A stretch of 64,000 nucleotides of DNA from positions 930,001 to 994,000 of the forward strand of contig LYSY01000002.1 of NCBI GenBank assembly GCA_001657395.1, in the 5' to 3' direction. The position numbers and the translations under genes were made by a program. Origin of the DNA: Rhodospirillales bacterium BBD 1991-14 (GTDB lineage: Bacteria > Pseudomonadota > Alphaproteobacteria > Kiloniellales > Kiloniellaceae). The notes below the pieces were generated by a model. It did no database searches. It saw nothing but the letters and a program-made list of their open reading frames with translations, and had not been told where the DNA came from. Of the stretch, positions 5,362-64,000 are shown one piece after another (position 1 is the first letter of the stretch; each line of letters opens with the position of its first letter).

Positions 5362-7209
5362 ATGCGTGCCACAACCATAGAGCCGGGGCAGAAGGCGACC
5401 CTCGGCCAACTGAAGGTTCTGACCAACCTTCTGCCCTACCTCTGGCCCGAGGGGCGGGCGGATCTTAAGACCCGCGTCATCTTGGCGCTGGTGCTGCTGG
5501 TCTGCGCCAAGGTCGCCACGGTCACGGTGCCGCTGGTTCTGCGCGAGGCGGTCGATGCCCTGACGGCGGAGGACGGCAGCAACCTGATCCTCGTGCTGCC
5601 GCTCGGCCTCCTGCTCGCCTACGGCTCCGTGCGGGTGGCGGCGCTGGCCTTCGGCGAGCTGCGCGATGCCCTCTTCGCCCGCGTGGCGCAGAACGCGGTC
5701 CGGCGGGTGGCGCTGGCCACCTTCCGCCATATCCACGCCCTCTCCCTGCGCTTTCACCTGGAACGCCAGACCGGCGGCCTCAGCCGCGCCATCGACCGCG
5801 GCACCAAGGGCATCGAGTTCCTGCTGTTCTTCACAGCCTTCTCGGTGATCCCGACGCTGATCGAGATCGCGCTGGCCTGTGGCATCCTCTGGGCGCTCTT
5901 CGACTGGCGCTTTGCCGTCATTCCCCTGGTCACCATCGCCGGCTTCGTGGTCTTCACCTTCAAGGTGACGGAGTGGCGCATCGAAATCCGCAAGCGCATG
6001 AACGATGCGGACAACGACGCCAACACCAAGTCCATCGACAGCCTCTTGAACTACGAGACGGTAAAGTATTTCGGAAACGAGGGGCACGAGGCATCGCGCT
6101 ACGACGTCGCGCTGGCGGGCTACGAGAAGGCCTCCATCAAGAGCCGCACCTCCCTCTCGCTCCTGAATGTCGGCCAGTCGATCATCATTGCCATCGGCAT
6201 CACCCTGCTGATGATCCTGGCCGCGCAGGGGGTCGTGGCCGGAACCATGACGGTGGGCGACTTCGTCATGGTGAACGCCTACCTGCTGCAGCTCGCCATG
6301 CCGCTGAACTTCCTCGGCACCGTCTACCGCGAGATCAAGCAGTCGCTGATCGACCTGGAGACCATGTTCAAGCTGCTGAAGTCCGACGCCGAGGTGACCG
6401 ACAAGCCGGGCGCGCCGGGCCTTGCGCTTCAGGGCGGCGAAGTGGTCTTCGACCATGTGAGCTTCGGCTACGATCCGCGCCGGCCGATCCTGAAGGACGT
6501 CAGCTTCACCGTGAAGGCCGGCGACACCGTGGCCATCGTCGGGCCCTCGGGCGCCGGCAAGTCGACGATCTCGCGCATTCTCTTCCGCTTCTACGACGTG
6601 CTGGAGGGCTCGGTGAAGATCGACGGCCAGGATCTGCGCGATGTCACGCAGGACAGCCTGCGCGCGGCCATCGGCATCGTCCCCCAGGACACGGTGCTGT
6701 TCAACGATACCGTCGGCTATAATGTGGCCTACGGCCGGCCGGAGGCGAGCGAGGAGGAGATGGTGGAGGCGGCGAAGCTGGCGCAGATCCACGACTTCGT
6801 CGAAGGCCTGCCCGACGGCTATGCCACCACCGTGGGCGAGCGCGGCCTGAAGCTCTCCGGCGGCGAGAAGCAGCGCGTCGCCATTGCGCGGACCATCCTG
6901 AAGGGCCCGCAGATCCTGCTCTTCGACGAGGCCACCTCGGCGCTGGACACCAAGACCGAGCGGGAGATCCAGGCGAGCCTGAAGGAGGTTTCCCGTGATC
7001 GGACCACATTGGTGATCGCCCACCGCCTCTCCACCGTGGTGGAGGCCGACGAGATCCTGGTCCTCGAACAGGGCCGCATCGTCGAGCGCGGCAGGCACGA
7101 GGCCCTGCTCGCCCAGCACGGCGTCTACGCCCAGATGTGGGCCCGCCAGCAGGCCGCGCGCTCCGAGGACGAAAGCGGCGACAAGCAGGCCGAGACCGCG
7201 GCGGAGTAA
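5362..7209 (+). CDS. Atm1-type ABC exporter (fused permease and ATPase)
   Basis: A 615-residue half-transporter. The N-terminal half has about six membrane helices; the motif LNYETVKYFGNE and LLNVGQSIIIAIG are typical of the Atm1/HMT1 branch. The ATPase half shows Walker A GPSGAGKST (394-402), signature LSGGEKQR (from 498), and Walker B ILLFDEATSALD (from 518). It should work as a homodimer in the inner membrane. Relatives export glutathione-linked sulfur or metal compounds for Fe-S assembly and metal detoxification. The ATG at 5362 follows CAGGAGAG; an upstream in-frame ATG lies in repeat sequence. Placement between the mutase and meaB may be incidental. Confidence 0.93.
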   Translation: MRATTIEPGQKATLGQLKVLTNLLPYLWPEGRADLKTRVILALVLLVCAKVATVTVPLVLREAVDALTAEDGSNLILVLPLGLLLAYGSVRVAALAFGELRDALFARVAQNAVRRVALATFRHIHALSLRFHLERQTGGLSRAIDRGTKGIEFLLFFTAFSVIPTLIEIALACGILWALFDWRFAVIPLVTIAGFVVFTFKVTEWRIEIRKRMNDADNDANTKSIDSLLNYETVKYFGNEGHEASRYDVALAGYEKASIKSRTSLSLLNVGQSIIIAIGITLLMILAAQGVVAGTMTVGDFVMVNAYLLQLAMPLNFLGTVYREIKQSLIDLETMFKLLKSDAEVTDKPGAPGLALQGGEVVFDHVSFGYDPRRPILKDVSFTVKAGDTVAIVGPSGAGKSTISRILFRFYDVLEGSVKIDGQDLRDVTQDSLRAAIGIVPQDTVLFNDTVGYNVAYGRPEASEEEMVEAAKLAQIHDFVEGLPDGYATTVGERGLKLSGGEKQRVAIARTILKGPQILLFDEATSALDTKTEREIQASLKEVSRDRTTLVIAHRLSTVVEADEILVLEQGRIVERGRHEALLAQHGVYAQMWARQQAARSEDESGDKQAETAAE

Positions 7210-7240
7210 CCGGACTTCTCGCGTGGTCGTTGTTTTCGGT

Positions 7241-7329
7241 TGTCACCCTCGGGCTTGACCCGAGGGTCCATTGTTCTGTTTTCGAGTCTGCCAGACCCAT
7301 GGATGCTCGGGTCAAGCCCGAGCATGACG
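7241..7329. repeat. REP-like composite palindrome, family A, copy 3
   Basis: TGTCACCCTCGGGCTTGACC, GAGGGTCCATTG, then GGATGCTCGGGTCAAGC and CCGAGCATGACG. Nearly the same as copy 2. Confidence 0.8.
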
Positions 7330-7366
7330 ATGTTTCTTTACCTGCTTGCAGCGGAAAAACCAAAGT

Positions 7367-7511
7367 CCCCTCACCCAGCTTCGGCTAGGCTCGCCAAGCC
7401 TGCGCAACCCTCTCCCGCGCTGGGGAGAGGGTTTCCTTATTGTCCCTGTCCCCTGGTGGGAGAGGGAGGGGCCCGCGCCGAGATAGAGAGTGGGGCGGGA
7501 GGGTGAGGGGG
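7367..7511. repeat. Family B palindrome, copy 3
   Basis: Bounded by CCCCTCACCCAGCTTCGGC and GGGAGGGTGAGGGGG, with AAGCCTGCGCAACCCTCTCC inside, shared with copies 4 and 5. Confidence 0.8.
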
Positions 7512-7522
7512 ACGCCGTTCGC

Positions 7523-7903
7523 CTATCCCGGCAGCACGAAGACCTGGCGGGCGAGGTCGCTTTTGAGGATGGACGTGTCGTAGCGGGCGGTGAGGATCTC
7601 TTTTTCGAAGAGGTCGGGGTTGGCTTCGGCGAAGGCCTCCCAGGAGAGGGCGCCGCCGCTCTCCGCGCGGCGCTGGTTGATCAGCGCCATGAAGGCCACG
7701 GTGATGGTCTCGTGGTAGAGCCCGGCCTTGCCGATGCTCTCGGCGTAGGCGGTGATGAGCGCGCGCATGCGCTCCAGCGCCGCGCCGAAGCTGTCCGCCT
7801 CGCCGAGCACCAGGTAGGCGGCGCGCACGTGGCCGCGGTGATCGAAGGCCTCGATCGGCAGGCTGCAGTCCGCCAGGCGGCGCAAAAAGTCTTCATCGGT
7901 CAT
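7523..7903 (-). CDS. Hypothetical protein with HRGHVRAAY motif
   Basis: A soluble, mostly helical protein of about 126 residues. The start at 7903 (MTDEDFLRRLA) is chosen because GAAGGA lies 8 bases upstream. A GTG at 7933, in a GTGA overlap with the preceding gene's stop, would add 10 residues. The segment FDHRGHVRAAYLVLGE near the N-terminus and YHETITVAF in the middle carry regularly placed His, Arg and Glu residues that could bind a metal or a ligand. I have seen similar short proteins called hypothetical and do not assign a function. It follows a small RHH-like gene in an apparent two-gene operon. Confidence 0.7.
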   Translation of the reverse strand: MTDEDFLRRLADCSLPIEAFDHRGHVRAAYLVLGEADSFGAALERMRALITAYAESIGKAGLYHETITVAFMALINQRRAESGGALSWEAFAEANPDLFEKEILTARYDTSILKSDLARQVFVLPG

Positions 7904-7929
7904 GGGATCGGGTCCTTCACGGGAGTCCT

Positions 7930-8172
7930 TCACTGGGGGTCTTCCTTCAGCGTGTGGCTGTCGGCGGCGGTGAGGTCCAGGCCGTAGACCCGCTTCAGGT
8001 CCTCGACGGCCTTGAGGGTGTCGGCATCGAAGGGCGCCTTGCCCTCGAAGGCATGGAGGACGATCCCCTCCAGGAGGTCGCCCAGGCTCATGTCCTTCAA
8101 TTCGGCCAGGCCCTTCAGGACCTTCAGCAGGCGCCTTTCCAGCCGCACGCCGGTCTGCACGCGTTCGATCAT
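7930..8172 (-). CDS. Small hypothetical protein, RHH-like N-terminus
   Basis: An 80-residue protein. The N-terminal half (MIERVQTGVRLERRLLKVLK, then SLGDLLEGIVLHAFEG) has the strand-helix-helix pattern of ribbon-helix-helix DNA-binding proteins, with a basic first strand; the rest is polar and acidic. Its stop overlaps a possible GTG start of the downstream gene, so the two are likely co-transcribed. Upstream DNA (8173-8220) is comparatively AT-rich and may hold the promoter. A DNA-binding or antitoxin-like role is possible but unproven. Confidence 0.72.
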   Translation of the reverse strand: MIERVQTGVRLERRLLKVLKGLAELKDMSLGDLLEGIVLHAFEGKAPFDADTLKAVEDLKRVYGLDLTAADSHTLKEDPQ

Positions 8173-8246
8173 GGTTGCTGTCTCGAATGTTATCTATGTA
8201 CCAATGTACCTATTTTCAAGCGCGGTGTCCAGGGCGGGCAACGGCT

Positions 8247-8416
8247 CCCCCTCACCCAGCTTCGGCTAGGCTCGGCTGAAAGCCTCGCCAAGCCTGCGCA
8301 ACCCTCTCCCACCAGGGGAGAGGGTCTTTCGGAGGGGTTGCATCGGTTCCCTCTCCCCTCGTGGGAGAGGGAGGGGCCCGCGCCCGAAATAGAAACTGGG
8401 CGGGAGGGTGAGGGGG
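8247..8416. repeat. Family B palindrome, copy 4
   Basis: Bounded by CCCCCTCACCCAGCTTCGG and GGGAGGGTGAGGGGG, with AAGCCTGCGCAACCCTCTCC and GGGGAGAGGG inside. At about 170 bp it is among the longest copies. Confidence 0.8.
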
Positions 8417-8454
8417 CCTTTGCGCCATGCCCCCGCCCGCGCTAGCCTTCTCCC

Positions 8455-8889
8455 ATGACCCCCGCCTTCACCCATCTGGCGCTGCACGTGCGCGACCTGG
8501 AGGCCTGCATCGCCTTCTACCGCGACTACTGCGGCATGAAGACGGTGCACGAGCGCGACGATAATGGCGCCAAGGGAGAGGGGCGCGTGGTCTGGCTGGC
8601 GGAGCCGGGGCGCGAGAGCGACTTCATCATCGTGCTGCTGCCCGGCGGGCCCGGGCGCGACCAGGCGGAGGGCGACTTCAGCCATTTCGGCTTCGCGCTG
8701 GAGAGCAAGGCGGCGGTGGACGCCATCGCCCAGAGGGCCGAGGCCGCCGGCTGCCTCGCCTGGGCGCCGCGCCAGGAGCCCTATCCCGTCGGCTATTACT
8801 GCGGCCTGAAGGACCCGGACGGCAACTTCGTCGAGTTCAGCTACGGCCAGCCGCTCGGGCCCGGCGCCGCGGAGCGCGGGGCGCCTTAG
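8455..8889 (+). CDS. VOC-superfamily protein (glyoxalase/dioxygenase fold)
   Basis: A 144-residue protein with the paired beta-alpha-beta units of the vicinal oxygen chelate fold. Candidate metal ligands are His7 (FTHLALHV), His77 (FSHFGFALE) and Glu127 (GNFVEFSYG). The second unit ends with the common KDPDGNFVEF segment of lactoylglutathione-lyase-like proteins. Its place between methylmalonyl-CoA mutase and meaB suggests methylmalonyl-CoA epimerase, but the C-terminal pattern typical of that enzyme is missing, so the substrate is open. No strong ribosome site is visible before the ATG. Confidence 0.85.
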   Translation: MTPAFTHLALHVRDLEACIAFYRDYCGMKTVHERDDNGAKGEGRVVWLAEPGRESDFIIVLLPGGPGRDQAEGDFSHFGFALESKAAVDAIAQRAEAAGCLAWAPRQEPYPVGYYCGLKDPDGNFVEFSYGQPLGPGAAERGAP

Positions 8890-8914
8890 GCCAAGTCCAT
8901 GCAACGTCCCCGCT

Positions 8915-9004
8915 TGTCACCCTCGGACTTGTTCCGAGGGTCCATGGTGCTGCTTCCCGGGTCTGCCCGAGAAATGGATGCTCGGGACAAGCCCGAGCAT
9001 GACG
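8915..9004. repeat. REP-like composite palindrome, family A, copy 4
   Basis: TGTCACCCTCGGACTTGTTC, GAGGGTCCATGG, then GGATGCTCGGGACAAGC and CCGAGCATGACGG. Confidence 0.8.
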
Positions 9005-9125
9005 GAAAGAACAGTTTGCTCCCTTTGCGGCGTGATCGATCAATGACGTACGCACAAGAACGGCGCTGCGGCAGTGTCGGGTAAGGGGCTTGCCTTCCCG
9101 CCCCTCGACGGCCCATAAGCGGGGC

Positions 9126-10118
9126 ATGACGGATGCCTTTTTCGTGAAAGCCGCCGATCTGGCCGGGCAGGTGCGCGCCGGCGACCGCCGGGCGCTGGCC
9201 CGCGCCATCACCCTGATCGAATCGACCAAGATCGATCACCTGGGGGAGGGGGAGGCGCTGCTGGAGGCCCTGCTGCCCCACAGCGGCAGCTCGGTGCGGG
9301 TCGGCATCTCCGGCGTGCCGGGGGTCGGCAAGTCGACCTTCATTGAGCGCCTCGGCCTGGATCTCGTCGGCGCCGGCCACAAGGTGGCGGTGCTGGCGGT
9401 CGACCCCTCCTCGCGGGTCAGCGGCGGCTCGATCCTGGGCGACAAGACCCGCATGGAGGAGCTCTCCCGCCATCCGGCGGCCTTCATCCGCCCCTCGCCC
9501 ACCGGCGGCACCCTGGGCGGCGTCGCCCGGCGCACCCGCGAGGCGATGCTGATCTGCGAGGCCGCGGGCTTCGATGTGGTGATCGTCGAGACCGTGGGCG
9601 TCGGCCAATCGGAGACCGCGGTGGCGGAGATGGTGGACATCTTCCTGCTGCTGCTGCTGCCCGGCGGCGGCGACGAACTGCAGGGCATCAAGAAGGGCAT
9701 CGTCGAACTGGCCGACGTGGTGGTGGTGAACAAGGCCGACGGCGACCTGGCCGCGGCGGCGGAGCGGGCGGCGGCGGAATACCACGCGGCGCTTGGCCTC
9801 CTGCGCGCGCCCAACCCCAACTGGCGCCCGCCGGTGCTGCGCTGCTCGGCCCTCACCGGCGCCGGCATTGCCGAGGTCTGGGAGACCGTGCAGGAGCATA
9901 AGGCAGTCATGGAGGCCAACGGCGCCCGCGCTGCCAAACGCTCCGCCCAGGCCGGTGCCTGGATGTGGAGCGAGGTGCGTGAGGGGCTGTTGCGGGAGTT
10001 CCGCGAGCATCCGGAGGTCTCCGCCGCCCTCGCCGACCTGGAGGCCGAGGTCCGCGCCGGCCAGACCCCGCCGACCGCCGCCGCCCGGCGCCTGATCCGC
10101 CTGTTTCTGGGGAAATAG
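9126..10118 (+). CDS. meaB: Methylmalonyl-CoA mutase-associated GTPase MeaB
   Basis: A 330-residue G3E-family P-loop GTPase. Visible motifs are Walker [10 protein letters not shown] (63-71), the AVDPSS switch segment (91-96), [10 protein letters not shown] (155-163) and the base-recognition motif NKADGD (202-207). MeaB gates cobalamin loading into methylmalonyl-CoA mutase and protects the enzyme from inactivation, so it works with the mutase encoded 4.3 kb upstream on the same strand. The start at 9126 gives the usual family length; an in-frame ATG 12 codons upstream lies in low-complexity DNA. Confidence 0.95.
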
Positions 10119-10451
10119 GCGAAAAGTCCTAGAGAAGGCTCTTGCCTGCTCTTTGGCACGCGGAAAGCGGGTCCCCCTCACCCAGCTCCGGCTAGGTTCA
10201 CTATGCTCACCAAGCCTGCGCAACCCTCTCCCGCCAGGGGAGAGGGTTTTTGTCGTTTGGCGCCCCTTGGGTTCCCTCTCCACTGGTGGGAGAGGGAGGG
10301 GCCCGCGCCAGTGAGAGAATGGGGCGGGAGGGTGAGGGGGAGAAACCCCGGCTTTCGGCTTGACTGCCCGGCGGTGCTGCCTTAGAACCTGCGGCGCACC
10401 GGGCGGCCTGCCGCCCGGTAACCTTTTTCTGACAGCCTTGGGATGACCATC
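10119..10451. other. Gene-free stretch with a family-B palindrome
   Basis: Holds one family-B repeat, then about 110 bp before rpmB. The latter part should contain the rpmB promoter; no confident -35/-10 pair was picked out. Confidence 0.6.
10173..10340. repeat. Family B palindrome, copy 5
   Basis: Bounded by CCCCCTCACCCAGCTCCGG and GGGAGGGTGAGGGGG, with AAGCCTGCGCAACCCTCTCC in the left half and GGGAGAGGGAGGGGCCCGC in the right half. Confidence 0.8.
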
Positions 10452-10745
10452 ATGGCACGACGGTGCGATTTCACCGGCAAGGGCGTTCAGGCCGGCAACA
10501 ACGTGAGCCACGCCAACAACAAGACGCGCCGGCGTTTCCTGCCGAACCTGCAGGAGACCAGCCTGTTGAGCGACGCGCTGGGCACCACGGTGCAGCTGCG
10601 CCTCTCCACCCGCGCCATCCGCACCATCGAAAAGCGCGGCGGCATCGACGCCTACCTGCTCTCGACCAGCTCGGAAAAGCTCGGCAAGCGCGCCCGCGAT
10701 CTGAAGCGCCAGATCAAGAAGGCCCTGGAGAAAAAGGCGGCTTAA
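10452..10745 (+). CDS. rpmB: 50S ribosomal protein L28
   Basis: A 97-residue protein beginning [20 protein letters not shown], the hallmark L28 N-terminus, with the basic core [13 protein letters not shown] and a lysine-rich tail. It binds 23S rRNA in the large subunit. The length and KALEKKAA ending fit alphaproteobacterial L28. The ATG at 10452 is preferred over one three codons earlier because the family starts MARRC or MSRRC. A strong terminator follows at once, so the gene is probably monocistronic. Confidence 0.97.
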
Positions 10746-10773
10746 CCGCCCAAACTTTCAGGTTCTTTGGCAG

Positions 10774-10796
10774 AGGCCCGCTTCGGCGGGCCTTTT
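10774..10796 (+). terminator. Rho-independent terminator of rpmB
   Basis: Perfect stem AGGCCCGC / GCGGGCCT with a TTCG tetraloop, followed by TTTT. Confidence 0.92.
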
Positions 10797-10834
10797 CGTT
10801 TGGCGGACACCAGACGGTCGGCCAGGTGGGCCCC

Positions 10835-10902
10835 GCCCTTCGAGACGGGCCTCCGGCCCTCCTCAGGGTAAGGTATTATCGGGCCTCATGATGAGGAGGC
10901 CG
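10835..10902. repeat. Family C intergenic palindrome (partial copy)
   Basis: CCCTTCGAGACGGGCCTCC, CCTCCTCAGG and CCTCATGATGAGGAGGCC match parts of the longer repeat at 42405-42518. Confidence 0.55.
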
Positions 10903-10913
10903 CGTCCCGGCCT

Positions 10914-11315
10914 TCAATCCTCTCCGCTGTCGCTGGGGCTGGTGATCAGCACCAGTTGGCGCAAGGCCTCGTCCCAGAAGGCCACATCCACCGCCACGCC
11001 ATGACGCTGGGCCTGATGGCGGAAGCGGACGATCCGCTCGAAGGGGTGGGGCAGCAGCACGGCGGCCATGACGGCGGCGCTGAGCGGGCGTTCGCTGAGG
11101 CCGAGGGGGCGGCTGTCGCGCGCAGCATTCTCGCCGCGCAGCCGGTCCAGGAACTCCGCGTCGCTCATCGGCGGCTGCGCCCCCGACGTGTTCGCATTCG
11201 ACGCGTCCGGCGGCGTCGCAGCCTCGACGAAAAGCGCCACTACGGTTGCCCCCGACACCGCCTCTGGATGGCCGTCCTTCCGCGTTCCGTCGGATGGTCC
11301 GAAATCCTCGCTCAT
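10914..11315 (-). CDS. Hypothetical protein
   Basis: About 133 residues from the ATG at 11315 (MSEDFGPSDG), which has AGGGA just upstream. The first 60 residues are Ser/Thr/Asn/Pro-rich and probably disordered. The C-terminal part (MSDAEFLDRLRGENAARD, then HPFERIVRFRHQAQRHG and VDVAFWDEALRQLVLI) looks like a small folded domain, and translation could instead begin at that second Met. No family is recognised. The opposite strand is also open, as is common at this GC content, so confidence is moderate. Confidence 0.5.
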   Translation of the reverse strand: MSEDFGPSDGTRKDGHPEAVSGATVVALFVEAATPPDASNANTSGAQPPMSDAEFLDRLRGENAARDSRPLGLSERPLSAAVMAAVLLPHPFERIVRFRHQAQRHGVAVDVAFWDEALRQLVLITSPSDSGED

Positions 11316-11555
11316 GTTCCCTGTCCCCGATGTGCGGCCTTGCGGTCTGCCCACGCGGTGAGAAGCGCAAGCATTGGATTCGATTTTAGAGGCAAGGAGC
11401 AGAAGAGAGAACTGTTCGTGATTGTAAAAACTTTCGAAAAGGGAGCTTATTTTTTTCGAAAAACAAAACTCACTTTATATCTTAAAAACTGTGCTTGATT
11501 TGGTGGTGTAAAACCACTTGCGCTTGCCACGAGCTGTCGGCATTTCTCGCAGAGG

Positions 11556-11792
11556 ATGATTACGGGAGAACAGTGCCGCGCGGCGCGCGCCCTTTTGCGT
11601 TGGAGCCAAAGTGACTTGGCGGAGCGCACCAGCATAAGCACCGTGACCATCCGCAATTTCGAGCTGGGGCGGAGCGTTCTGAAGGAAAGCACCGCGCGCC
11701 TCGTGCGGTTCACTTTTCAGGACGCCGGCGTGGTCTTTCTGGATCCCGACGACGAAGGTCCGGGCGCCCGACTCGCCAAGCCGGTCGACTGA
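11556..11792 (+). CDS. Small XRE-family helix-turn-helix protein
   Basis: A 78-residue protein that is almost entirely one Cro/C1-type DNA-binding domain: MITGEQCRAARALLRWSQSD, LAERTSISTVTIRNFELG, then a short C-terminal strand (DAGVVFLDPDDEG). The pattern, five helices then GVxFL, is frequent in alphaproteobacterial one-domain regulators. It lies right of an AT-rich patch (about 11370-11550), unusual for this window, which may be its promoter or a sign of transfer. Targets are unknown. Confidence 0.9.
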   Translation: MITGEQCRAARALLRWSQSDLAERTSISTVTIRNFELGRSVLKESTARLVRFTFQDAGVVFLDPDDEGPGARLAKPVD

Positions 11793-11807
11793 ATCTTTCC
11801 CGCCGCC

Positions 11808-12875
11808 TCACTGTGCCTCAGACAACTCGAACTGCACGATGAGGGTGCGCTGCAGGGCGTTGAAGTTGTCGTCGGAGAGCAGGGTGAGGCGGGTGGCGCC
11901 CGCCGGTGTCTGGTGCACGGCAAGGCCTTCGAAGTTGTCGACGGTGAGCGGCAGGCGCAGCTCGGCGATCTCCGTGCCGGTCAGCACAGCGCCGGGCGCA
12001 ATCGCCGCCGCCGGTATCAGGCGCAGCCGGATGCCGACGCCGCCCAGCAGCGTGAAGCGCCGCTCCAGCAGCATGACATCCCCGCCGGGCAGCAGGGCCG
12101 CCCCGGTGGGCCGGAACAGCCCCACCGGCTTCAGCGCCAGTTCGGTCCATCCTCTCCCCTGTTCCCAGAGATAGACGGCGTAGTTCTCAGGCCCGTTGGC
12201 GGCGGAGGCCGCCTGGCTCTCGGTGAAGGCCAGCAGCCGCCCGTCGGCCAGGGCCACCAGGGCCTCGACACCGGAGTTGAGGGCAGCGGCGGAGAGGCGC
12301 GGCGGCGCTGCGAGCGATTGTGGGCGGGCGTTGAGATCGTTTCCCGCCGGAAACAGCCTGATGCGGTGGTCGCGTTCGTAGCCGACCACCAGGCCGCCAC
12401 CGTCCGGCAGGCGGGTCAGGGCTTCGGCATCCTGGCGCCGCTTGCCCTGCAGGACTGCGCCGTCGACGCCTCGCAGATGCCCGAAGCGCGTCGCCGTCAT
12501 GCCGGAAAGCTGCCCGGCGCCGTCGTAGCTGAGGGTCGCGCTCAGCCAGCGCCCGCTGTCGCTGACGGCCAGGATTTCCCGGCCCGCAGGGTCGATCGCC
12601 AGGTCCGACAGCCCGCCGAAGTCCCGGTCGTCGGCGGTGACCACGAGGCCGCCGCGCCAGACCAGCGCGCCGATCCTCTGCTGGGCCTTGTCTTCCGGGT
12701 TCAGCGGCAGGGCGCGGACGCTGAGGCCCAGGGTGCCGGATGCGCCCTCCGATGCGCCCTCCGCCGGGCGCGTCAGCGGCGGCGCCAGAACGGCGACGAA
12801 GAGCGCGCTCAGGACGGGTGTGATCAGGGCGAGGGCGATCAGCAGGGCCGCGGGGCCGGAACGCAGATGTCTCAC
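11808..12875 (-). CDS. Phytase-like esterase-domain protein, exported
   Basis: About 355 residues. A membrane-spanning or signal segment covers residues about 7-32 (ALLIALALITPVLSALFVAV). The rest has the repeating strand pattern of a beta-propeller-like phytase-like esterase domain (DFGGLSDLAIDPAGREILAV, then LPDGGGLVVGYERDHRIRLF, and DNFEGLAVHQTP, LLSDDNFNALQRT near the end). The final LLSDDNFN-type stretch is typical of that family. GTG at 12875 is preferred over TTG at 12881 because GAGGAA is then eight bases upstream. The linker codes EGASEGAS through a perfect 12-bp duplication. Confidence 0.85.
   Translation of the reverse strand: MRHLRSGPAALLIALALITPVLSALFVAVLAPPLTRPAEGASEGASGTLGLSVRALPLNPEDKAQQRIGALVWRGGLVVTADDRDFGGLSDLAIDPAGREILAVSDSGRWLSATLSYDGAGQLSGMTATRFGHLRGVDGAVLQGKRRQDAEALTRLPDGGGLVVGYERDHRIRLFPAGNDLNARPQSLAAPPRLSAAALNSGVEALVALADGRLLAFTESQAASAANGPENYAVYLWEQGRGWTELALKPVGLFRPTGAALLPGGDVMLLERRFTLLGGVGIRLRLIPAAAIAPGAVLTGTEIAELRLPLTVDNFEGLAVHQTPAGATRLTLLSDDNFNALQRTLIVQFELSEAQ
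12739..12762. repeat. 12-bp perfect tandem duplication in the esterase gene
   Basis: GATGCGCCCTCC occurs twice in a row, coding the repeated EGAS on the minus strand just after the membrane segment. Confidence 0.9.
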
Positions 12876-60274: not shown

Positions 60275-61465
60275 ATGAGCGTTAGGCCATATCGGGACAT
60301 CTACCGGCGGAAATCGCGCCAGATTCACGTCGGCTCCGTGCCGGTGGGCGGCGATGCGCCGATTACCGTGCAGTCGATGACCAATACGCTGACCAGCGAC
60401 GTCGCGGCGACCATCGCCCAGGTCCGTGCGCTGGAGGTGGCCGGCGCCGACATCGTACGGATTTCCTGTCCTGACGAGGACTCGACGGCGGCGCTCAAGG
60501 AGATCATCCCCGAGGTCACTGTCCCCATCGTCGCCGATATCCACTTTCACTATCGCCGCGGCATCGAAGCGGCGGAGGCGGGGGCCGCCTGCCTGCGCAT
60601 CAACCCCGGCAACATCGGTTCGCGCGACCGCGTGCGCGAAGTGGTGAAGGCAGCGCGGGATAACAACTGTTCCATCCGCATCGGCGTGAACGCCGGCTCC
60701 CTGGAGCGCGATCTGCTGGAGAAGTACGGCGAGCCCTGTCCGGAAGCGATGGTGGAGAGCGCGCTGAACCACGCGCGCATCCTGGAGGACGAGGATTTCT
60801 TCGAGTTCAAGATCTCCTGCAAGGCCTCCGACGTCTTCCTGGCCGTGGCGGCCTACACCGCGCTGGCCGAAGCTTGCGATTACCCGCTTCACCTGGGCGT
60901 GACCGAGGCCGGCGGCCTGCAGACCGGAACCATCAAGTCCTCGATCGGCATCGGCAACCTGCTTTGGGCCGGCATCGGCGATACCATCCGGGTCTCGCTC
61001 TCGGCCGATCCGGTGGAAGAGATCAAAGTCGGCTTCGACATACTGAAGTCGCTCGGCCTGCGCCACCGCGGCGTGAACGTCATCTCCTGCCCGTCCTGCG
61101 CGCGCCAGCAGTTCGAGGTCATCAAGACCGTCGAGGTGCTGGAGAAGCGCCTGGCCCATATCACCACGCCGATGACGGTGTCGGTGATCGGCTGTGTGGT
61201 CAACGGCCCCGGCGAAGCGTTGATGACCGATATCGGCTTCACCGGCGGCGGGCGCGGCACCCACCAGGTCTATGTGAACGGACTGCCGGACCACCGCCTG
61301 AAAGACGACGACATCGTCGGTCATCTCGTCGAGATGGTGGAGCGCAAGGCGGCGGAGATCGAGGCCGCCAAAGCTGCCGAAGAGGCCGGTCAAGAGGCTG
61401 GGGCGCAGCAGATCAAAGACGGCGCCAGCAGCGAAGATCCGACGCCGGCCGCTGCGGCCTCTTAG
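60275..61465 (+). CDS. ispG: 4-hydroxy-3-methylbut-2-enyl-diphosphate synthase
   Basis: A 396-residue 4Fe-4S enzyme of the MEP isoprenoid pathway, converting MEcPP to HMBPP. The N-terminal TIM-barrel domain starts with [20 protein letters not shown]; the C-terminal cluster cysteines are Cys272 and Cys275 ([12 protein letters not shown]) and Cys307 ([10 protein letters not shown]). This is the bacterial one-chain GcpE form. GGAAGGA precedes the ATG. The C-terminal tail is Ala/Glu-rich and longer than usual. Confidence 0.97.
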
Positions 61466-61483: not shown

Positions 61484-62740
61484 TTGAGCAGCCTTCAGCC
61501 CGTCAGGGGCACGCACGACCTGTTGCCCGATGCCATGCGCCGCCACCGCGCGGTCGTCGACTCTGCGCGGGACGTCGCTGCGCGCTATGGCTTCCAGGAA
61601 ATGGCCACGCCGATCTTCGAGTTCACCGAGGTCTTCAAGCGCACCCTCGGCGACACCTCCGACATCGTCACCAAGGAGATGTACACCTTTGCCCCCGGTG
61701 GCCGCGATCAGGAGAGCGAAAGCATTACCTTGAGGCCGGAGAACACCGCCGGCGTCGCCCGCGCCTTCATCTCCGGCGGGCTCGCGCAGCAGGTTCCGGT
61801 GAAGGCCTTCTACGCCGGCCCGATGTTCCGCCGCGAGCGGCCGCAGAAGGGCCGCCAGCGTCAGTTCCATCAGTTTGGCGTCGAACTGATCGGCATTCCC
61901 CAGCCGCAGGCCGATGTCGAAGTGATCGCCTGCGGCGCGCAGATCCTGGAAGCGCTGGGCCTGCAGGATGCCGTGGTACTGGAACTCAATACCCTGGGCG
62001 ACCCGGAGAGTCGGACCGCCTACCGGGAGGCGCTCGTCGCCTATTTCTCGGACCACCGCGACAGCCTTTCGGAGGACAGCCGGGAGCGGCTCGCGCGCAA
62101 CCCGCTGCGGATCCTCGACTCCAAGGACGAAGGGGACCGCAGGTTGGTGGCCGACGCGCCGCTCTTCGAACACTACCTGAACAAGGACAGCCGGGACTTC
62201 TTCGCCGCGGTGCGGGCGGGTCTGGACAGTCTCGGCATCGCCTATCGGCTCAATCCTCGTCTTGTGCGCGGCCTCGACTACTACTGCCACACGGCTTTCG
62301 AGTTCACCACCGACCGGCTCGGCGCGCAGTCCGCAGTGATGGCGGGGGGACGCTACGACGGCTTGATCAAGACCATGGGCGGCCCGCCGACACCGGGGGT
62401 CGGCTGGGCAGCGGGCGTCGAACGGCTGGCCATGCTGACCGGTGAACCCGCTGCAGCGCCGCGGCCCATCGTTGTCGTTCCGGTCGGTGAGGCTGCGGCG
62501 GAGACGGCGCTCAAGGTGACACAGAGCCTGCGGCACGCGGGTTTCGTCGCCGAGCTGGGATACTCTGGGAACCTGAAGAAGCGCCTCCAGCGCGCCGACA
62601 AGATGAATGCCCGCGCGGCCCTGCTCCTCGGCGAAGAGGAACTGGTGGCCGAAAGCGCAACCCTGCGCGACCTCGACTCCGGAGAGCAGGAGCTCGTCAA
62701 ACTCACATCTTTGACCGAGCGCCTCTCCCGCCTCGCTTAG
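61484..62740 (+). CDS. hisS: Histidyl-tRNA synthetase
   Basis: A 418-residue class II synthetase. Motif 1 region starts LQPVRGTHDLLPDAMRRHRA; ESITLRPENTAGVAR is motif 2, and the histidine-A/B segments LVRGLDYYCHTAFEF and MAGGRYDGLIKTMGGP are conserved. The C-terminal anticodon-binding domain ends near residue 418. TTG start at 61484, preceded by GGGAGA. It lies 18 bp after ispG, suggesting one operon. Confidence 0.97.
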   Translation: MSSLQPVRGTHDLLPDAMRRHRAVVDSARDVAARYGFQEMATPIFEFTEVFKRTLGDTSDIVTKEMYTFAPGGRDQESESITLRPENTAGVARAFISGGLAQQVPVKAFYAGPMFRRERPQKGRQRQFHQFGVELIGIPQPQADVEVIACGAQILEALGLQDAVVLELNTLGDPESRTAYREALVAYFSDHRDSLSEDSRERLARNPLRILDSKDEGDRRLVADAPLFEHYLNKDSRDFFAAVRAGLDSLGIAYRLNPRLVRGLDYYCHTAFEFTTDRLGAQSAVMAGGRYDGLIKTMGGPPTPGVGWAAGVERLAMLTGEPAAAPRPIVVVPVGEAAAETALKVTQSLRHAGFVAELGYSGNLKKRLQRADKMNARAALLLGEEELVAESATLRDLDSGEQELVKLTSLTERLSRLA

Positions 62741-62750
62741 CGGGCCGGCG

Positions 62751-64000
62751 ATGGCGGACGGCGACAGCACGAGAGATGCAGCGAGTGCCGAGAAGCTTCG
62801 GCGCCTGTCCCTGGTCGGCGTCAGCCATCGCAGCGTCAATGCCGCGCTGCGCGGACGTTTTTTCGATGAGGAGCCGGACCAGGCGGCGCTGCTGGAGGCG
62901 CTGCGCAGCGCCGACTGGGAGGAAGCCCTGGCGGTCGCCACCTGCGAGCGCCTGGAATTCGTCGTGATCGGCCGGCCGGAGCATGAGCCGGCGGCGGAAC
63001 TGCTGCAGCGCATCGCCCGGACGGCCGATGTCTCTCCAGTCGATCTGGCGGGCCAGAGCTACTGCCATACCGGCACGCAGGCGCTGCGCCACCTCTTCGC
63101 CGTCGCCGCCTCGCTGGACAGCCTCGTGGTCGGGGAACCGCAGATCCTGGGCCAGATGAAACAGTGCTACCGCGCCAGCCGGGAGGCAGGGCTGTCCGGA
63201 CCGCTGCTGGATAGCGCCCTGCAGGCGGCCTTTGCCGCCGCCAAGAGGGTGCGCAGCGAAACCCCGATCGGCCAGCAGACCAGCTCGATGACGCTGATCG
63301 CCCGCCAGGTCGCCGAAGACCTGCACGGGCGTTTCGATGCCCTCAAGCTGCTGTGGCTGGGGCTCGGCGAGATGGGCGAGATGCTGTCCGGCGATTTCCT
63401 CTCCGCCGGGATCGAACATCTGCTGGTCATGCATAGCTCGCCCCTGCGGGCGGAAGCCGTGGCGCGGCGCCTCGCCTGCAACTTTGCGCCACAAGAAACG
63501 CTGGATCATCATCTGGCGGAGGCCGACATCGTGATCACCGACACCAGCGCCGGGCGCTTCACCCTGGATGCCGAACAGGTCGAGGCGGCCTTGAAGCGTC
63601 GTCGTCGTCGTCCGATGCTGCTGATCGATGCCGGGGTGCCATCGGATATCGAACCCGGCGTCGCCGACCTCGACGGTGCTTTCGTCTACGACCTCGACGA
63701 CCTGGAACGGCTTGCGCGCAGTGAGGCCGGCGGCCGCGCCGCTGCCGAGGCTATGGCCTGGGGGGTTGTGGAGGAGGAACTGGAGCGCTTCTGCCGGACC
63801 CAGGCCGAACGCAGCGCCGCCCCCTCCGTCACCGCCCTGCGGCAGCACTTCGAGGCGGTGCGCCGGGAGGTGCTCGCCCAGGGCGCGGACGATGCCGAGG
63901 CGGCCACCCGGCTGTTGATCAACAGGCTGCTGCACGGCCCGTCCGAGGCCCTGCGCCACACCGCAGGCAGCGACCCTGCTGCGGGGGAAGCGCTGGAGCG
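62751..64000 (+). CDS. hemA: Glutamyl-tRNA reductase (3' end outside window)
   Basis: At least 416 residues, open at the window edge. The catalytic Cys65 lies in ATCERLEF (usually TCNR), His114 in LRHLF and the diagnostic SLVVGEPQILGQ at 124-135. The Rossmann start is GLGEMG (204-209). The C-terminal dimer domain is present (MLLIDAGVPSDIEPGVADLD, ATRLLINRLLHGPSEALRHT). The enzyme makes glutamate-1-semialdehyde for 5-aminolevulinate by the C5 route, while most Alphaproteobacteria use ALA synthase. Several usual motifs are altered. It starts 10 bp after hisS. Confidence 0.88.
   Translation, partial: MADGDSTRDAASAEKLRRLSLVGVSHRSVNAALRGRFFDEEPDQAALLEALRSADWEEALAVATCERLEFVVIGRPEHEPAAELLQRIARTADVSPVDLAGQSYCHTGTQALRHLFAVAASLDSLVVGEPQILGQMKQCYRASREAGLSGPLLDSALQAAFAAAKRVRSETPIGQQTSSMTLIARQVAEDLHGRFDALKLLWLGLGEMGEMLSGDFLSAGIEHLLVMHSSPLRAEAVARRLACNFAPQETLDHHLAEADIVITDTSAGRFTLDAEQVEAALKRRRRRPMLLIDAGVPSDIEPGVADLDGAFVYDLDDLERLARSEAGGRAAAEAMAWGVVEEELERFCRTQAERSAAPSVTALRQHFEAVRREVLAQGADDAEAATRLLINRLLHGPSEALRHTAGSDPAAGEALE

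Follow-up and report, generated by a model that had tools for sequence, protein, structure and literature searches.

In the C5 pathway, the cysteine of glutamyl-tRNA reductase (GluTR, also GtrR or HemA; EC 1.2.1.70) is described as taking up glutamate in a thioester that is reduced by NADPH (PMC7242693), and an esterase activity of the enzyme is described as being prevented when NADPH is in its place (PMC4726326). The product of the reductase, GSA, is used by the aminomutase HemL. ALA is alternatively supplied by ALA synthase (ALAS), and according to PMC11480375, a recent paper, Alphaproteobacteria use the ALAS route and all other bacteria that of GluTR. One alphaproteobacterial GluTR homologue, Rru_A0749 of Rhodospirillum rubrum, has been expressed in Rhodobacter sphaeroides, with reported 5-ALA levels of 25.9 versus 12.4 mg per g dry weight (PMC4684066). 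In that study ALA was measured by a colour assay, in two replicates, in a host that has an ALAS itself; the study includes no enzyme assay, relies on the host's annotated aminomutase and treats Rru_A0749 as an ordinary GluTR. No other paper on a GluTR in HemL-less Alphaproteobacteria was recognised in the open full-text literature, which was covered mostly at listing level.

The gene analysed here lies at the end of a 64,000-nucleotide stretch of the genome of Rhodospirillales bacterium BBD 1991-14, hereafter the window (Table 1), and is the only GluTR copy in that genome. It is one of a set of alphaproteobacterial GluTRs, here termed orphans, whose genomes yielded no HemL. The orphan resembles GluTR (EC 1.2.1.70) in its three-domain fold, its catalytic Cys and His, the Arg after the Cys, the adjoining prfA-prmC genes and a score above the TIGR01035 cut-off, but differs in carrying Asp or Glu for the Asn of TCNR and in having lost the NADPH-side motif, and its genome differs in possessing ALAS and no HemL above cut-off.

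Table 1. Features of the orphan GluTR locus, in window coordinates
Feature	Position	Strand	Basis
ispG, upstream of hisS	60275..61465	+	profile search
hisS, directly upstream of the GluTR gene	61484..62740	+	profile; neighbour in 100/115 testable orphan loci
Orphan GluTR-family gene, 436 aa	62751..64000 (real end at window coordinate 64061)	+	profiles, predicted fold
TCER: Cys65 (catalytic) and Arg67 kept, Glu66 at the Asn of TCNR	62940..62951	+	alignment
His114 (E. coli H99), kept	63090..63092	+	alignment
GLGEMG, Rossmann-domain glycine loop, kept	63360..63377	+	alignment
HSS where NRT is expected; NADPH-side motif lost	63432..63440	+	alignment
Arg329 (E. coli R314), kept in all Cys-bearing orphans examined	63735..63737	+	alignment

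The open reading frame starts with ATG and runs for 436 codons, extending 61 bases past the window end, and its full reading, those 61 bases included, contains no stop or frameshift. The sequence-only reading had allowed for an interruption just beyond the window that would mark a pseudogene; none occurs up to 64061, and a pseudogene was rejected on the strength of the intact frame together with the dN/dS values given below. Its other descriptions of the locus are borne out: a full-length GluTR begins 10 bases after the end of hisS, and Cys65, His114, TCER (residues 64-67), GLGEMG (204-209) and the missing NRT, replaced by HSS (228-230), are all as it described. The gene prfA, which it had named as a possible downstream neighbour, does follow, with a start that overlaps the GluTR gene by 4 bases, and prmC comes next. 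The TIGR01035 (hemA) model matches the 416 residues encoded within the window at 274.9 bits (cut-off 209.55), six further NCBIfam GluTR models match, each under its own cut-off, and the Pfam domains GlutR_N, Shikimate_DH and GlutR_dimer are all above cut-off. Judged from its sequence, with homology over the whole length, the predicted three-domain fold and a Cys followed two residues on by Arg, the protein is a GluTR homologue. As a GluTR of the C5 pathway, however, it lacks three defining features: the Asn of TCNR, the NR[TS] motif and a HemL above cut-off in the genome.

An AlphaFold2 model of the protein, computed from alignment A1 of 42 orphans, has a mean pLDDT of 90.2. Its nearest solved structures by Foldseek and VIA-align are the GluTRs of Methanopyrus and Arabidopsis; VIA-align gave Z 27.2 and an rmsd of 9.1 over 361 residues for 1gpj, and Z 27.0 and an rmsd of 9.1 over 390 residues for 4n7r_A. 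No structure in the VIA-align list ranked over the GluTRs, and the top non-GluTR row had Z 17.4. The large rmsd is probably due to domains that have moved relative to each other. A regained GxGxxG loop was considered as a special trait of the orphan and dropped, because the Methanopyrus and Arabidopsis enzymes also have GxGxMG, which makes GLGEMG unremarkable.

The suggestion, made from the sequence, that this lineage might use the C5 pathway is not supported by the pathway genes. A genome search found two ALA synthases that pass the equivalog cut-off of 338.55 bits (657.9 and 656.2) and no HemL above cut-off, the top match reaching 358.4 bits against 527.3 and also missing, with 382.3, the cut-off of 398 set for PRK00062.1, a model of the HemL subfamily. 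At G000:C19:237455-240251, one ALAS gene is preceded on its own strand, at a distance of approximately 600 bases, by a class-III aminotransferase-like match. Among 61 genomes of the order, GluTR was above cut-off in 54 and ALAS in 58, and HemL was found in none at an E threshold of 1e-150, at which it was detected in nine of 14 control genomes; Haloferax, a GluTR-bearing control genome, was missed at this threshold in both the order and the class runs. In the class sample, for which HemL was sought at the same threshold and up to four first-look candidates for GluTR and HemL were scored per genome, 72 of 385 genomes had GluTR; HemL was found in five of these and in no others, four of the five being above cut-off, which leaves 67 genomes with an orphan. 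ALAS was sought in 67 of the 72 GluTR genomes, the remaining five being orphan genomes of the order sample, and was above cut-off in none of the five HemL genomes but in 56 of the 62 orphan genomes searched. The five orphan genomes common to both samples all possess ALAS, with a stop inside the ALAS match of G004, bringing the overall count to 61 of 67 orphan genomes. The six without ALAS above cut-off, which weigh against the reading favoured below, are G112, G115, G123, G146, G318 and G410. G318, listed as 100% complete, yielded no match for ALAS or HemL at the thresholds applied, and is a possible ALA auxotroph or carrier of a divergent ALAS. G058 of the order sample, also listed as 100% complete, has ALAS, but its sole GluTR match is weak (7.4e-7) and limited to a piece of the Rossmann domain; the orphan can therefore be lost. 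In the phylum control of 150 genomes (HemL threshold 1e-130), HemL accompanied GluTR in 99 of the 104 GluTR genomes outside the class, missing in G460, G513, G533, G537 and G566, and three more genomes possessed HemL without GluTR.

A second possibility raised by the sequence-only reading, that of an additional, divergent GluTR kept beside ALAS with a possibly changed role, holds insofar as the gene is divergent and stands beside ALAS; it is, however, the sole GluTR of its genome. No result of the analysis favours the link that this reading drew to a high demand for tetrapyrroles. The combination extends far wider than one gene, to 54 of the 61 order genomes and to the 67 of 385 class genomes without HemL. 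The altered motifs are real but not peculiar to this protein, being common to almost all GluTRs of the HemL-less Alphaproteobacteria examined, and although GluTR itself is not universal in the clade, the same changes recur in nearly all orphans. The phenomenon is general and not the quirk of one gene.

The signature lies directly beside the catalytic cysteine, at N51 in E. coli numbering, which is used from here on. In an alignment of 155 proteins, two partial genes were left out, giving 117 orphans, of which 55 are from the order, the protein described here included, and 62 from the class sample. Position 51 is Asn in all 31 canonical rows and all five HemL-bearing alphaproteobacterial rows, and Asp or Glu in 115 of the 117 orphans, which divide into C-D-R (73), C-E-R (35) and C-N-R (2) motifs and seven Cys-less proteins with D or E. 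A further 80 named loci were retrieved with a search pattern that had been built from orphans; the ten assigned to Alphaproteobacteria all have D or E at N51, one more, titled Proteobacteria only, has Glu, and the other 69 have Asn. Azospirillum melinis (L184) is among the ten, and cultured species therefore carry the orphan. Because the 69 named loci within the 105 reference rows were picked for Asn51, these rows are uninformative on N51, and the comparison at this position rests on the 31 canonical and five HemL-bearing rows. Four of the 69, all outside Alphaproteobacteria, have Ser or Thr at the Asn of NRT (N213). The two motifs are separable in a few orphans: L079 has TCDR with CNRT kept, and L089 and L101 keep TCNR and have lost NRT.

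The primers given in PMC4684066 for Rru_A0749 translate to RVEIFGH and HILGQVK. The first His of HILGQVK occurs in Azospirillum and in ten of the 117 orphans but is absent from all 105 reference rows, so that Rru_A0749, annotated as a GluTR like the orphans, is probably of the orphan kind, as judged from primer letters that fit the orphan set.

Beyond N51, the orphans are conserved on one side of the active site and variable on the other. R52 and S109, which we take to act at the atomic level in the glutamyl-tRNA half, and NRT, which we take to act on the NADPH side, exemplify the two sets of residues. All 110 Cys-bearing orphans keep each of T49, R52, S109, G113, E114, Q120, R153 and R314, and 101 of the 117 orphans keep His99, which is replaced in 16. 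Of the NADPH-side residues, N213 survives in 1 of the 117 orphans, R214 in 27, T215 in 15, S249 in 10 and T250 in 5; the canonical rows keep N213, R214 and T250 in all 31 and S249 in 30. HemL-bearing Alphaproteobacteria keep N213 and R214 in all five rows and S249 and T250 in just three each, and the NR pair is therefore the stronger sign and S249 and T250 are weak evidence. The persistence of R214 in 27 orphans, and of T250 in the protein described here, suggests that nucleotide binding may survive in part. New letters are common among the 117 orphans, with Glu at Q304 in 115, His at F177 in 103, Gly at N310 in 102 and Phe at A352 in 97. A general decay of the NADPH domain was rejected, given that the columns of domain II average nearly the same entropy in orphans (1.86) and in the wider reference set (1.81).

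The seven Cys-less orphans are L138, L140, L142 and L143, all of family f66, and L071, L133 and L146, and each keeps the Arg and the acidic residue before it. S109 is retained in 2 of the seven, E114 in 1, R153 in 2 and R314 in 2, with S109 and R314 both lost in the f66 rows, and R52 and G113 are retained in all seven. Thioester chemistry is therefore not universal in the set. Since four of the seven belong to one lineage, the loss of the Cys may be secondary, and the joint losses may amount to few events.

Gene order and selection both bear on the history of the gene. The next gene downstream is prfA in all 115 testable orphan loci, in four of five HemL-bearing alphaproteobacterial loci and in all 31 canonical loci; hisS is next upstream in 100/115, 4/5 and 0/31, respectively. 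The HemL-bearing alphaproteobacterial GluTRs (L075, L076, L077 and L096) thus share the hisS-GluTR-prfA operon place with the orphan but, unlike orphan genomes, keep TCNR and NR[TS] with a HemL above cut-off and no ALAS above cut-off. Two trees of a quick kind were calculated. The first, of 69 of the 155 rows with the long rows L147, L146 and L096 included, separates Alphaproteobacteria from other Proteobacteria, leaves the base of the former open and needs three changes between Asn and Asp or Glu (Asn in L089 and L101). The second, of 49 hand-picked rows without the long ones (34 of 117 orphans, three of five HemL-bearing and 12 of 31 canonical), places the 34 chosen orphans on one side of a branch with an SH-aLRT of 99 when the columns of N51 and 213-215 are left out. 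By the Nei-Gojobori method, GluTR dN/dS is 0.04-0.32 in the 12 measurable of 13 chosen pairs, with dS >1 in two; the value exceeds that of prfA in 11 of 12 pairs and matches it in one, and exceeds that of hisS in eight of nine and lies below it in one. The orphan gene is under purifying selection, looser than that on its neighbours. The simplest history, we infer, is an ancestral hisS-hemA-prfA-prmC operon followed by takeover by ALAS, loss of hemL and a single hemA change.

A different arrangement is seen in L147 (G150), from an alphaproteobacterium with no ALAS match, where positions 5989-12464 hold a cluster of hemA, hemL, a sensor kinase, a response regulator, hemC and hemE, the last four named by eye from translations. 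The branch of its HemA is very long and the gene adjoins neither hisS nor prfA; the cluster is probably a secondary gain of the C5 pathway.

Glutamyl and thioester parts that are frozen, NADPH parts that vary and a HemL partner that is gone point to an enzyme that would go no further than the esterase half-reaction of GluTR. We give roughly even chances to the orphan being an old, vertically inherited former GluTR that binds glutamyl-tRNA, probably forms a thioester and no longer makes GSA. After ALAS had taken over ALA supply and hemL had been lost, hemA would have stayed in the hisS-hemA-prfA-prmC operon as the front half of a GluTR: glutamyl-tRNA(Glu) would be bound and attacked by Cys65 to give a glutamyl thioester, which the NADPH reduction step could no longer follow. 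Hydrolysis, with help from the new acidic residue beside the Cys, might then free the glutamyl group, or the group might be handed to another acceptor; in the cell the protein may act as a deacylase of glutamyl-tRNA, as a sensor of its charging or as a glutamyl donor that depends on tRNA. The more specific proposal, that of a GluTR-derived thioester former without reduction, in which the acid beside the Cys steers the glutamyl group to water or another acceptor and which ALAS-using Alphaproteobacteria would keep for charge sensing, for quality control in translation or for a new glutamyl transfer, is offered tentatively; no description of such a thioester former lacking the reduction step was found in the open full-text literature searched. 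A binding-only role and continued reductase activity are jointly next best.

Continued activity would mean a working reductase with changed cofactor contacts, perhaps for NADH, whose GSA goes on to ALA or elsewhere through another aminotransferase. We consider this unlikely, even though the Cys, Arg52 and the glycine loop are all kept. NADH sites usually end the second Rossmann strand with Asp or Glu, and neither is common at this position in the 117 orphans (His 65, Ala 26, Gly 13, Asp 8); the scarcity of N213, S249 and T250 and the presence of ALAS in nearly all orphan genomes also argue against it. The ALA increase reported for Rru_A0749 in PMC4684066 is in favour of a reductase, and counts against the role proposed for the orphan. 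A candidate aminotransferase exists in the HemL-like protein noted above, with 358 bits under the HemL cut-off (L007, 1405-2688 of G000:C1). Among 80 genomes followed, a similar protein was present in 15 of 40 GluTR genomes versus none of 40 GluTR-less genomes, many of the latter being smaller genomes, and this bias is counter-evidence to a loss of reductase function. As a hidden HemL, however, L007 was rejected as an obligatory partner owing to its patchy occurrence across the 80 genomes: 25 of the 40 GluTR genomes, including three of four from the same genus, had no match at E 1e-80. The binding-only role, that of a non-catalytic regulator or scaffold that binds tRNA(Glu) or a partner through the GluTR dimer and, for example, tunes hisS-prfA expression or ALAS activity, also appears improbable. 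The nearly constant operon place fits it, as do the seven orphans that lack the Cys yet all keep Arg52 and the preceding acid, and the mean entropy of the dimer domain, at 2.04 in orphans, lies below the 2.45 of the wider reference set, although the orphans cover fewer taxa. Against it, 110 of 117 orphans retain the Cys, and S109, E114, R153 and R314, invariant in these and mostly missing from the seven without it, are kept or lost jointly with the Cys, as expected for chemistry.

Two further explanations carry very little weight. A slowly decaying relic without function would account for the lost NADPH-side motifs and for dN/dS values above those of prfA and hisS in most pairs, but it is highly improbable, as these values are well below 1, none of the GluTR matches listed for the order and class has an internal stop and new letters, such as Glu at Q304, have become common to the orphans. 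Horizontal gain of a GluTR beside ALAS, for which nothing speaks beyond the oddness of the gene in an ALAS organism, is the least credible of all and was rejected on gene order and tree: hisS-GluTR-prfA also occurs in four of the five HemL-bearing Alphaproteobacteria, and Alphaproteobacteria group together against other Proteobacteria.

The finding means that 67 of 385 sampled alphaproteobacterial genomes contain a GluTR without the enzyme that uses its product, and with one common change beside the catalytic Cys. Since HemL-bearing and HemL-less relatives exist within one class, a change of function is directly testable. If the orphan acts on glutamyl-tRNA, it would add to the uses of charged tRNAs outside translation, and any pipeline naming it glutamyl-tRNA reductase would then be inferring the C5 pathway, or guiding the engineering of ALA production, on a wrong basis.
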